A stretch of 64,000 nucleotides of DNA, from assembly GCF_004765785.1 (NCBI RefSeq), contig NZ_SBIT01000007.1, forward strand, positions 1-64,000. Reading direction: 5' to 3'. Shown piece by piece: positions 13,232 through 16,709 of this stretch. Each line of letters opens with the position of its first letter. The first letter of the stretch is position 1. Made by a program: the position numbers and the translations under genes. Under the pieces are notes generated by a model. The model searched no databases. It was not told where the DNA came from and saw only the letters and a program-made list of their open reading frames with translations. The stretch comes from Halorussus ruber. Its GTDB lineage: Archaea > Halobacteriota > Halobacteria > Halobacteriales > Haladaptataceae.

Positions 13232-13867
13232 TCACTCCTTCGGCGTCGCGTAGTCGGTCAGCTCCAGCGTGTCGGAATCGAGTTCGTAGAACCGTTCCCA
13301 AACGGGCGCGAGGCTGACGACGCGGGTGTCGCCGTACTCGGCCTCGACGTGGCGCTCGTGGTGGCCGACCAGACAGAGGTCCGGATTCAGCGCGTCGAGG
13401 AGTTCGTCGATTCGCTCACAGCCAGCGTCGTAGCCGTAGTAGACGACGCCGTGAGGGGCCTCGTGGGTCAGGAGGACGTCCACGTCGTCCACCTGTTTCA
13501 GGCGTTCGACGTCCTCGCGGACGAAGTGTCGGCGGCGCTCGCCCGAGAGGTCCGCGCGGGACTCGTCGTACTGGGTCGGTGCGTAGTTGCCCGACAGACC
13601 GGCGATGCGCAGGCCCTCGACCTCTGCGACGGTGCTGGCGAGCAGATGGGCGTTCCGGACCCCCTCGGGGTCCTCGCCGCGCCGGAGCGCGTCGATGGCG
13701 TCGAACTCCTCGTTGTTGCCCGCGACGAAGTAGGTGGGAACCGGCAGGTCGTAGTAGAGCAGGTCGCCGGTGTGGAGCGCGACCGAGGCATTCGATTCCC
13801 GGTAGGCGGCCAACAGCGACTGGCGGTGGTCGGCGTCGTCGGCGTGGGCGTCTCCGAGGACGAGCAT
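13232..13867 (-). CDS. Metallophosphoesterase, tandem paralogue 1
   Basis: A 211-residue calcineurin-like phosphoesterase: LGDAHADD (DxH), LHTGDLLYYD (GD), FVAGNNEEFD (GNNE rather than GNHE), LLTHEAPHG and LVGHHERHVE (GHH). It is closely similar along its whole length to the next gene (13983), so the two arose by tandem duplication. Substrate is unknown; the short domain without an insert resembles phosphodiesterases of the YfcE/MJ0936 type. Confidence 0.88.
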   Translation of the reverse strand: MLVLGDAHADDADHRQSLLAAYRESNASVALHTGDLLYYDLPVPTYFVAGNNEEFDAIDALRRGEDPEGVRNAHLLASTVAEVEGLRIAGLSGNYAPTQYDESRADLSGERRRHFVREDVERLKQVDDVDVLLTHEAPHGVVYYGYDAGCERIDELLDALNPDLCLVGHHERHVEAEYGDTRVVSLAPVWERFYELDSDTLELTDYATPKE

Positions 13868-13925
13868 CGGCGGAGAACCGACGGGAATCGAGGTAAGGGC
13901 TGTGGCTCGCCAGAATACTCCCTAG

Positions 13926-13962
13926 GCAATCAAACCAATTTCTAAGAAAACGTTTTGATTGC
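13926..13962 (-). terminator. Inverted repeat between tandem phosphoesterase genes
   Basis: GCAATCAAA (13926-13934) and TTTGATTGC (13954-13962) are perfect 9-base complements separated by 19 AT-rich bases. The repeat follows the stop of the second phosphoesterase and precedes the start of the first. It may be a terminator or the operator/promoter of the downstream copy. Confidence 0.45.
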
Positions 13963-13982
13963 TCAAGGAAACGTGGAGTTGT

Positions 13983-14624
13983 CTATGACGGCGGCGTCGA
14001 GTACGAATCCAACGCCAGCGTCTCGGGATCGAGACGGTAGTACCGCTCCTGAACCGGCGCGAGGCTGACGACGCGCGTGTCGTCGTAGGCCATCTCGGCG
14101 TGCTGGTGGTGGTGGCCGACCAGACAGAGGCGCGGTTCGACCGCCTCGAGGAGTTCGTCGATGTACTCACAGCCGACCTCGTAGTCCTCCGAGACCGGCA
14201 GGCCGTGAGGAGCTTCGTGGGTCAGCAGTACGTCCACCTCCTCCAGTTGCTTGACCGCCTCCACGTCGTCGCGGACGAAGTGTCGCCTGCGTTCGCCGTG
14301 GAGGTTGGGTCGGGGGCGTTCGTACTGGGTCGGCGCGTAGTTGCCCGACAGACCGGCGATGCGCAGGCCCTCGACTTCGACGGCCTCGCCGACGATGAGG
14401 CGGGCGTTCGTGACGCCGGAACTCTCGACGCGGCCGTGTCGCAGGGCGTCGATGGTGTCGAAGTCCTCGTTGTTGCCCGCGATGAAGTAGGTAGGAATCG
14501 GCAGGTCGTAGTGAAGCAAATCGCCTAACTGCAACGCCACGTCCGCGTCGGCGGCCCGATAGGCGGCGAACAGCGCGCGCCGGTTGTCGGGGTCGTCGGC
14601 GTGAGCGTCTCCGAGAACGAGCAT
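13983..14624 (-). CDS. Metallophosphoesterase, tandem paralogue 2
   Basis: A 213-residue paralogue of the preceding gene with the same motifs: LGDAHADD, LQLGDLLHYD, FIAGNNEDFD, LLTHEAPHG and LVGHHHQHAE. Differences cluster in the loop after the THEAPHG motif (PVSEDYE here, VVYYGYD in paralogue 1), which could change substrate choice. Transcription probably starts just upstream of the ATG at 14624. Confidence 0.88.
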   Translation of the reverse strand: MLVLGDAHADDPDNRRALFAAYRAADADVALQLGDLLHYDLPIPTYFIAGNNEDFDTIDALRHGRVESSGVTNARLIVGEAVEVEGLRIAGLSGNYAPTQYERPRPNLHGERRRHFVRDDVEAVKQLEEVDVLLTHEAPHGLPVSEDYEVGCEYIDELLEAVEPRLCLVGHHHQHAEMAYDDTRVVSLAPVQERYYRLDPETLALDSYSTPPS

Positions 14625-14759
14625 TAATCACGCGTTCGACCGGCGGAAAGATAAAACCGCGGTTCAGACGGCGCTTCAGCGACGGGGAGATAGTGCTATA
14701 CTCGACATCGTAACGTAAAGATACAGTCCCAAACGTTTATCCGCCCGAAAGAAAGAACC

Positions 14760-15818
14760 GTGTCAGACACAGCGAACTCCTCCGTTAGTGTGCTAAATCC
14801 GCGATGCGATTGCAGCGACCACACAGACTACGAGACCGAGTACGGACTAGACCTCACCGAAGTGGAATCGCTACCGTATCGTGCAGAGTTCTGCGACACT
14901 AACGGCCGGGAGGAGTACGAGGTGCTGTCCTTCGCCGAAGAGTGCCGTCTCCTGAGTGCGCTCGGCGAGGTTCACGACCACGAGAACGTCTGTCGAGTCC
15001 TCGACCCCCACTACCGCTGGAAGGTCTCATCGAACCCGAAAGAGTACGACTATCCACAGCATCACGAACACCTGTTCAAGTACACGTTCGAGGTCGAGTG
15101 TGAAGTTCGCGGAGAGGAGCCGCCGACGTACCAACCCAATCCCGACGATTGTGCAGTCGCCCGAGACCTCTACTGCGTGACACAGGCGTTTCTCGATCAG
15201 CAGGAGGGCTCGGAATTGACCGTGTATCGCGGACTCTCGCGGCACGCGTCGAAGTTCGTCGCTCGGACGCTCCGTGCAGAGTCACGACCGAAGTACGAAA
15301 TGCCTGCAAACGTCCTCAAGAATTTCACGGCCTCGGAGTCGTTCGGGTCGTTTTACAGTTCGCTCGTCTTTCGACTCGACGTTCCGCGCACCGCTATCGC
15401 CATCGCGGCCGACCATCTTGCCAAGCACCGACAGGGCGGAACCCCTGCCGAGCGTGACGCCGAATACCGCGTCTTCGGCGACGAGTTCGGGACCGTCTCA
15501 CCGGACGACATCTACCTGTACGTCGATGGAGAACGAACGCCGCTGTTCGATTTTGTCGCCGTCAAAGAGACGTTCACGAGGCCCGAGCATCTCTGTTACG
15601 TCGATTCGATACGACAATTGGCGAAAGACGACGAACGCATCACGAGCGACCCCGGCGTCTCTCGTGTCGCCGACTGGTACGAGACGCTCGCCGAGGACGA
15701 GTACGAACTCGCCGAGACGATAGAACCGATCGTCCACTATGTCGTCGGAGAAGCGAGCGAACTGCCGAACGACTGGGAGGACGACTTAGAGAGCAAGATT
15801 GGAAAGAGCCGAATCTGA
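14760..15818 (+). CDS. Unrecognised protein with ADP-ribosyltransferase-like features
   Basis: A 352-residue soluble acidic protein, GTG start. The N-terminal third is cysteine-containing and unrecognised. From about residue 155 it resembles R-S-E ADP-ribosyltransferases: LTVYRGLSRHASKF (YRG, motif-1 Arg), then LKNFTASESFGSF (position of the Ser-Thr-Ser strand), then a hydrophobic strand, then AEYRVFGDEFGTV where the [E/Q]xE-V-hydrophobic motif is expected. The terminal catalytic Glu is not clearly in place (E-Y-R), so activity is uncertain. TTTATC near 14737 may be its TATA box. This reading is inference from motif spacing. Confidence 0.4.
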   Translation: MSDTANSSVSVLNPRCDCSDHTDYETEYGLDLTEVESLPYRAEFCDTNGREEYEVLSFAEECRLLSALGEVHDHENVCRVLDPHYRWKVSSNPKEYDYPQHHEHLFKYTFEVECEVRGEEPPTYQPNPDDCAVARDLYCVTQAFLDQQEGSELTVYRGLSRHASKFVARTLRAESRPKYEMPANVLKNFTASESFGSFYSSLVFRLDVPRTAIAIAADHLAKHRQGGTPAERDAEYRVFGDEFGTVSPDDIYLYVDGERTPLFDFVAVKETFTRPEHLCYVDSIRQLAKDDERITSDPGVSRVADWYETLAEDEYELAETIEPIVHYVVGEASELPNDWEDDLESKIGKSRI

Positions 15819-15842
15819 GCAAAACCTATAAGACTACACGAG

Positions 15843-15851
15843 AGATATATT
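15843..15851 (+). promoter_or_regulatory. TATA-like box for gene at 15870
   Basis: GATATATTA sits 19-27 bases before the ATG, close to the usual position for a leaderless haloarchaeal transcript. Confidence 0.4.
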
Positions 15852-15869
15852 ACGGTAAGAGACCCACTC

Positions 15870-16370
15870 ATGCCCGACGAGCAATCCTCCGTTACGGTCG
15901 ATCTTCGGGACGAAAACGAAGAGTGGGTGCAGTACGCGCGAAACCAAGGACGGCCTCGCTCGGATTCGGAAATCGACGACCAGTCGCTCGAAGCCGCGTC
16001 GAACCGAAAGCTTCGGCGGGCCGTGTATCAGTATCTCGAAAATCTGGAGCATAATACGCTCGATATAGCGACTCTCTTCGAACTCTCTCGACGCCAACTT
16101 CTGGACGAACTGGCGGGTCTCGTCGTCCATCGCGTACAGAACGTTGAATCGATTCGAAGAGAAATTCGAGGTCGACTCCGCTCCGAGGAAGACGTTTCGG
16201 CGTTCGAGTTACCACAGCGAACCCGAGAGGAGACGGCGAAGTATCTCGCCGAGGCGGTCGGAAAAGCCGAGATTCGGCGGATGGCCCGTTTGCTACTCGA
16301 CAGAGAATCCAGTCTCGATACCGACGACCCTCTAGAATGCGTTCCGGGACCTCGTACGACGAGCGATTGA
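15870..16370 (+). CDS. Unrecognised helical protein next to ART-like gene
   Basis: A 166-residue charged protein, mostly predicted helix, with no membrane segment or known motif. The segment ELSRRQLLDELAGLVVHRVQN and the arginine-rich stretch after it suggest nucleic-acid or protein binding. It starts 51 bases after the ART-like gene, but a TATA-like GATATATTA (about 15843) lies about 25 bases before the ATG, so it can also be transcribed alone as a leaderless message. A partner or immunity role is speculation. Confidence 0.6.
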   Translation: MPDEQSSVTVDLRDENEEWVQYARNQGRPRSDSEIDDQSLEAASNRKLRRAVYQYLENLEHNTLDIATLFELSRRQLLDELAGLVVHRVQNVESIRREIRGRLRSEEDVSAFELPQRTREETAKYLAEAVGKAEIRRMARLLLDRESSLDTDDPLECVPGPRTTSD

Positions 16371-16709
16371 GAAGCAGTAACTACTGGGGTTCTGTACTTT
16401 TCTGCGACTAAACAAATTCTCGCCGACGTTCGGCAGGTATCGCGCTCGGCGCAAAGATTAAGTCCGAGTGAGTGTGTTGGTCGCATATGCACTCCGACCA
16501 CACCGCGGCCGCGCTCGTCTCGTCGGCCAGCGGTGGGTCGGTCGGTTTTGCGGGGCTGAAACGCACAAAACGCGATTACCGACAGGCTTGAGGCGGGCGT
16601 AGCACACCCGTCGCGGGCCGCACTCGTTTTTCGGATTTCACCGTTCAGCCTCGAATCGACAACCGGCGCGAAAGCACGTATCCGACCACCAACCGACCGA
16701 CCACCCACC
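16371..16709. other. Leader region upstream of the dap operon
   Basis: Apart from a possible 34-codon frame at 16487-16591, no gene was seen. GATTAAG near 16456 lies about 28 bases before that small frame and could be its TATA box and that of the dap transcript. Confidence 0.45.
16487..16591 (+). CDS. Possible leader peptide, 34 residues
   Basis: An ATG frame encodes a 34-residue peptide beginning MHSDHTAAALVSSASGG and ending basic (KRTKRDYRQA). Its first half uses GC-ending codons like real genes. A TATA-like element sits about 28 bases upstream. Its place before the lysine operon suggests an upstream reading frame, but it is not lysine-rich and no clear attenuator hairpin was seen. Confidence 0.3.
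   Translation: MHSDHTAAALVSSASGGSVGFAGLKRTKRDYRQA

Follow-up and report, generated by a model that had tools for sequence, protein, structure and literature searches.

The DraT-DraG pair controls nitrogenase by ADP-ribosylation. In TAC systems, the chaperone binds a C-terminal extension of the antitoxin of about 45 residues (ChAD), and this extension defines TAC antitoxins (PMC5105189, PMC6377645), the tails displaying no significant similarity among one another (PMC5105189). The T4 capsid protein frees the CmdTAC system by outcompeting its antitoxin (PMC11618068), and with this system ADP-ribosyltransferase (ART) toxins restrained by SecB-like chaperones emerged recently as a principle of phage defense in bacteria. 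The TAC descriptions in PMC5105189 and PMC9519451 concern bacteria as well; no description of an archaeal TA or TAC system with an ART was found in the open literature, which does not prove its absence.

Here we analyze a pair of adjacent genes, A and B, from Halorussus ruber. We consider it likely that they constitute a haloarchaeal TA-type conflict module, which is of the TAC type in most Halorussus carriers, with A as an R-S-E ART toxin, B as its antitoxin and a chaperone-less copy in the genome studied.

Gene layout and distribution of the module

The window, i.e., the whole stretch of 64,000 nucleotides of H. ruber DNA that was analyzed, contains the two genes together with two putative control elements:

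14706..14724, + strand: upstream element CATCGTAACGTAAAGATAC, putative promoter region of gene A (presumed function); conserved block in 5/5 Halorussus loci
14760..15818, + strand: gene A, predicted R-S-E ADP-ribosyltransferase (toxin/effector), 352 aa; assigned by conservation and by homologues beside ADP-ribosylglycohydrolase genes
15821..15835, + strand: TATA-like element AAAACCTATAAGACT of gene B; nearly unchanged between A and B in five genomes
15870..16370, + strand: gene B, predicted antitoxin/partner, 166 aa, without the C-terminal extension of its relatives; assigned by its occurrence only beside A, by alignment and by a partner-profile test

The original prediction had described here two ORFs separated by 51 bases, possibly forming an effector and partner pair outside any recognized family. 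Both ORFs were found at these positions with an intergenic gap of 51 nt, and the pair is conserved, A and B co-occurring in other genomes; the GTG start of A lies at a position common to all five close homologues. Both genes are coding and under purifying selection, since the close homologues share 63-71% identity with the window genes at dN/dS of about 0.1-0.46 for A and B alike. Gene B probably possesses its own promoter, because the TATA-like box, already ascribed to it in the original prediction, is nearly invariant in the A-B gap. A scan for bacterial sigma-70 promoters was discarded as inapplicable to archaea. The gene order, whose conservation across haloarchaea was proposed earlier as a check, turned out to be conserved, and in the other Halorussus carriers B is followed by a third gene, designated C. 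Searches of A, B and C against Pfam, NCBIfam and PADLOC revealed no family above threshold, so the pair is still undescribed as far as these collections reach; the PADLOC models of the release used, which may or may not include CmdTAC, gave no match at E<=1, and a comparison by sequence with PDB chains returned no match for any of the three proteins.

The A-B pair was detected in 5/18 Halorussus genomes, among them Halorussus aquaticus XZYJ18 (G004), always at one shared site, flanked by dapA and a metallophosphoesterase gene. Most other Halorussus genomes have these two genes as direct neighbors, separated by a few hundred bases and with nothing in between. Since carriers and empty sites have the same flanking genes, the module is a patchily distributed insertion at a stable locus. 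Beyond the genus, a profile of A found homologues in 15/392 Halobacteriales genomes, and no carriers outside this order were found among the 295 genomes of the phylum searched. The family member on the Halorubrum BOL3-1 plasmid p163 (L065) adjoins a site-specific integrase.

Two further observations concern the surroundings of the module and the genome of the window (G000). Upstream of the module (13232-14624, − strand), two tandem homologous calcineurin-like phosphoesterase genes lie beside an NYN-domain gene. The same genome encodes at C11:62583-63524 a distant paralogue of A (321 aa) with a 79-aa partner bearing the VDL motif described below; its neighbors are cysK-like and HAD-hydrolase-like genes, and it is also conserved in G008 within this context.

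Gene A as a predicted ADP-ribosyltransferase

The tentative assignment of A to the R-S-E ARTs in the original prediction relied on YRG, FTAS and E-x-R-V-F segments occurring in this order. In the window protein Y156-R157-G158 is indeed followed by F189-T190-A191-S192 and then by E235-Y-R-V-F. R157, T/S190 and E235 are present without exception in 16 divergent haloarchaeal homologues sharing 19-70% identity, and the further invariant residues of this set are K88, R117, A216, D218 and W306. Position 233 is occupied by D or E in 15/16 homologues and by S in one; in R-S-E mono-ADP-ribosyltransferases the catalytic Glu is usually located within (Q/E)-x-E. Judging from the alignment, R157-T/S190-E235 corresponds to the R-S-E triad of these enzymes, with E235 as the predicted catalytic Glu. 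The original prediction had found this Glu unclear; it is now placed at E235. The codons of the triad are as follows:

15228..15230, + strand: codon of R157 (triad R; in YRG, first core strand); 16/16 homologues, DSSP strand 152-158
15327..15329, + strand: codon of T190 (triad S/T; in N-F-T-A-S); T/S in 16/16, DSSP strand 186-190
15462..15464, + strand: codon of E235 (predicted catalytic Glu; D/E-x-E context); 16/16, DSSP strand 235-239

The AlphaFold2 model of A has high confidence (pLDDT 87, pTM 0.85), and the triad lies in it on consecutive core strands (152-158, 186-190 and 235-239 according to DSSP). When this model was compared with the PDB by Foldseek, the ART toxin Plx2a ranked first without reaching significance (E 0.51, prob 0.38); other R-S-E ARTs recurring in the same list are C3larvin, C3bot and VahC. 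Among viral models, the best matches, the only significant ones, were uncharacterized proteins of archaeal viruses and tailed phages, four of them with E <1e-3 (best 8e-6), and annotated ARTs appeared lower in the list with E 0.1-0.2.

The strongest support for A being an ART is provided by the gene context. In the operons L064:5881-8201 and L065:6123-8229, an A homologue and a small partner gene are followed by a gene of ADP-ribosylglycohydrolase (PF03747 matches with E 7e-66 and E 6e-61, respectively). The hydrolase of L065 is annotated as ADP-ribosylglycohydrolase in the record of the plasmid p163, and the A protein of this plasmid matches another family member with E 1e-14. One could suppose that A is catalytically dead or no ART at all and that the R-S-E pattern is coincidental, as the non-significant PDB fold match and the lack of a Pfam family above threshold would allow; yet it is exactly R157, T/S190 and E235 that are invariant in 16 sequences, they reside on core strands of the model, and ADP-ribosylglycohydrolases are co-operonic with A homologues, so that we regard a coincidence as highly improbable. 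The original assignment of A is thus upheld by the identifiable E235, by the rank, if not the significance, of an ART in the fold search and by the co-occurrence with the hydrolase.

The only Pfam family recurring among A proteins is DRAT (PF07357), matched by 4/16 members and always below the threshold (15.1 bits for the window protein at a cut-off of 25). As the best Pfam match of A, albeit a sub-threshold one, and together with the ADP-ribosylglycohydrolase partners in two loci, it is in line with another explanation, namely that A is a DraT-like regulatory mono-ART acting reversibly on a host metabolic protein, with B as its activator or modulator, the hydrolase, where present, as the eraser, and no conflict role. 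At the genome level, such an enzyme with its modulator would look much like a TA module. However, the loci examined contain no nif genes, the DRAT cut-off is reached by no member of the family, and the presence of A is patchy both in the genus (5/18) and in the order (15/392); the plasmid and integrase context, the SecB-like third gene and the homologous domain in a toxin-bearing viral protein (see below) also argue against a DraT-like role, which we therefore consider rather unlikely. The TA-type reading, preferred here, assigns the role of antitoxin to the product of gene B.

Gene B and the partner family

Among 195 relatives, B is present only beside A, and in 11/11 distant A loci an ORF on the same strand begins 21-189 nt downstream of A. 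Most of these partners share with B a short motif, which in B is N-terminal:

15891..15926, + strand: N-terminal partner motif VTVDLRDENEEW of B; VDL-x3-9-W in 11/16 partners, 1/317 background

The pattern [VI]DL-x(3-9)-W was detected in 11/16 partner sequences against 1/317 background proteins, which is given as an enrichment and not as a formal test, since the pattern was defined after the partners had been seen and these include several close relatives, amounting to about five lineages. The partners in L061 and L067 do not contain the VDL motif. A profile of eight short partners, from which B had been left out, placed the window B first among the non-training proteins of a 344-protein set (E 6e-4), the other B proteins ranking after it; the first picks of the B profile among the partners were, in turn, those of L066, L062, L060 and L067. 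These profiles suggest that B is weakly related to the short partners. No relation of B to known antitoxins, no DNA-binding domain above threshold and no match to macrodomain or NADAR families were revealed. We consider B to be a dedicated partner of A, most likely its antitoxin; this label may be too simple, because the antitoxin of CmdTAC also aids the folding of its toxin (PMC11618068).

SecB-like gene C and its absence from the window

Gene C encodes a protein of 158-160 aa. In 4/5 Halorussus loci, i.e., in all except the window, it lies downstream of B, either directly adjoining it or at a distance of about 50 nt. Its model (pLDDT 80, pTM 0.72) consists of a four-stranded sheet followed by helices, and the top ten PDB matches of this model are all SecB proteins (E 1e-3 to 1e-2). 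The first of them, 5mtw_C, is Rv1957 of Mycobacterium tuberculosis with the antitoxin ChAD peptide (E 1.1e-3, prob 1.0). C is thus predicted to be SecB-like by its modeled fold, because sequence profiles do not reach SecB (PF02556 misses C, and hhalign against six SecBs gave prob 0.1).

In the four genomes that possess C, the B protein comprises 192 aa and ends with a conserved extension of about 43 residues, whereas the window B (166 aa) has no such extension. The tail reads ...TETSW.SDRV...ENRTRLNSRG in three of the four; that of G002 is somewhat different and has the same RTRLNSRG end. A likeness between TRLNSRG at the end of the tail and the ChAD peptide EVPTWHRLSSYRG was weighed but left unused because of the mutual dissimilarity of TAC tails (PMC5105189).

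The region where the relatives have the end of B and gene C is reduced in the window to a junction:

16329..16422, + strand: junction at which relatives have the B end (about 43-aa extension) and SecB-like gene C; homology resumes at 16423

The window DNA ceases to be homologous to its relatives near 16328; from 16423 on it is homologous again, here to what G002 has downstream of C. No homologue of C was found anywhere in the window genome, nor any remnant of it in the window; the tail and C are jointly absent. Loss of C appears more likely than its late gain, since in the tree of the dapA region (FastTree) the window groups with the C-bearing G002 with a support of 0.95; the tree of A alone leaves loss versus gain undecided. 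The window copy seems to be a chaperone-less derivative, which lost C together with the tail that probably depended on it.

A second association of SecB-like proteins was observed in haloarchaea, which may represent a further candidate TAC module. Here the SecB-like gene is overlapped or abutted in most loci by a gene of a winged-helix protein with a C-terminal tail (HxlR-like in L070), and in 5/6 loci a divergent gene encodes a protein of 183-238 aa with an H-I-x-G-P-Y motif.

Loci of the second SecB-like association: L070:5917-7738, L071:5935-7832, L072:4801-6723, L073:5174-6494, L108:1040-2869, L107:2016-2965

A homologous domain in a viral protein

Residues 745-945 of gp115 of the virus HVTV-1 are homologous to A (A profile, E 2e-22). 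This protein of 1313 aa is encoded in the viral head-gene region (L101:957-4898) and also contains a zeta-toxin domain (145-317) and a canonical ART domain, ADPrib_exo_Tox (1148-1297); it may be a multi-toxin protein delivered with the virion. The stretch VIDLTSEAGWL at position 1036, about 90 residues past the A-like domain, may represent the B-partner motif fused in one chain, which is only a lead, because the short-partner profile gave no significant detection there. Scans of IMG/VR yielded no match with A, and with the viral A-like domain only HVTV-1 itself.

The location of a viral A homologue within a head-region protein, like the service of SecB family proteins in export, could be expected if A were an ART effector directed against viruses or rivals, with B assisting its delivery or folding instead of inhibiting it and the SecB-like protein acting as a secretion chaperone. 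Delivery of this kind is very unlikely in our opinion, as a domain scan recognized no trafficking domain in A, archaea have no SecA (stated in PMC4361572), B is conserved beside A even without C, and the top structural match of C is a SecB of the TA type.

Proposed mechanism

Returning to the TA-type module, we infer an enzymatic activity and toxicity of A, its neutralization by B, a dependence on the chaperone and an antiviral role. A would act as a mono-ADP-ribosyltransferase using NAD+ to modify a cellular target, with harmful effect, and B would dock on A via its N-terminal VDL..W segment and restrain it. In carriers of C, this SecB-like protein would hold the extension of B, as in TAC systems, and A would be freed once C is lost or diverted, e.g., upon viral infection. 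The hydrolase-bearing versions would erase the modification instead, and the window copy would represent a two-gene, chaperone-independent version. What the sequences themselves show is the triad, the gene order, the partner motif, the SecB-like fold prediction for C and the joint absence of the tail and C.

To a broader claim we assign roughly even chances: that this is the first TAC-type family of archaea to have an R-S-E ART at its core, combined with an antitoxin of a new class and an interchangeable third part (SecB-like chaperone or ADP-ribosylglycohydrolase), and that the window displays a chaperone 'de-addiction', in which the tail and the chaperone were lost in one deletion. The joint absence of both offers a natural experiment on losing chaperone addiction, and R157, E235, the partner motif and the chaperone tail are concrete points for tests in genetically tractable haloarchaea.

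Comparison with known systems

Like DraT-DraG, the module combines, in two homologous loci, an ART and an ADP-ribosylglycohydrolase, and it shows a weak DRAT match; it differs from that pair in scoring below the DRAT cut-off, in the lack of a visible nif context and in the extra small partner. With DarT-DarG and other ART/immunity pairs it shares an ART toxin with a cognate antitoxin, the hydrolase being a possible eraser; unlike in these pairs, B has no macrodomain or NADAR match, and the hydrolase is encoded, in the loci that have one, by a third gene of the ARH/DraG type. HVTV-1 gp115 has the A-homologous domain and the VIDLTSEAGWL stretch as well, but fused in a 1313-aa viral head-region protein.

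The TAC system of M. tuberculosis (HigB1-HigA1-Rv1957) is similar in having an antitoxin with a C-terminal extension of about 45 residues beside a TA-associated SecB (PMC5105189 / PMC6377645), and its SecB provides the best match of the C model (5mtw_C). Its toxin and antitoxin are of the HigB/HigA type, unrelated to the ART and the new helical partner of the haloarchaeal module.

The nearest known system in design is CmdTAC (PD-T4-9) of Escherichia coli, with the same order of ART toxin, antitoxin and SecB-like chaperone and a variable antitoxin sequence (PMC11618068 / PMC9519451). In contrast to A with its R-S-E triad, CmdT is exotoxin-A-like with an inferred catalytic Y41 (PMC11618068), the two being set apart by description; furthermore, the module is haloarchaeal, and its window copy has no chaperone. 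An independent and catalytically different archaeal version, if true, would suggest that the TAC design was assembled with ARTs more than once.
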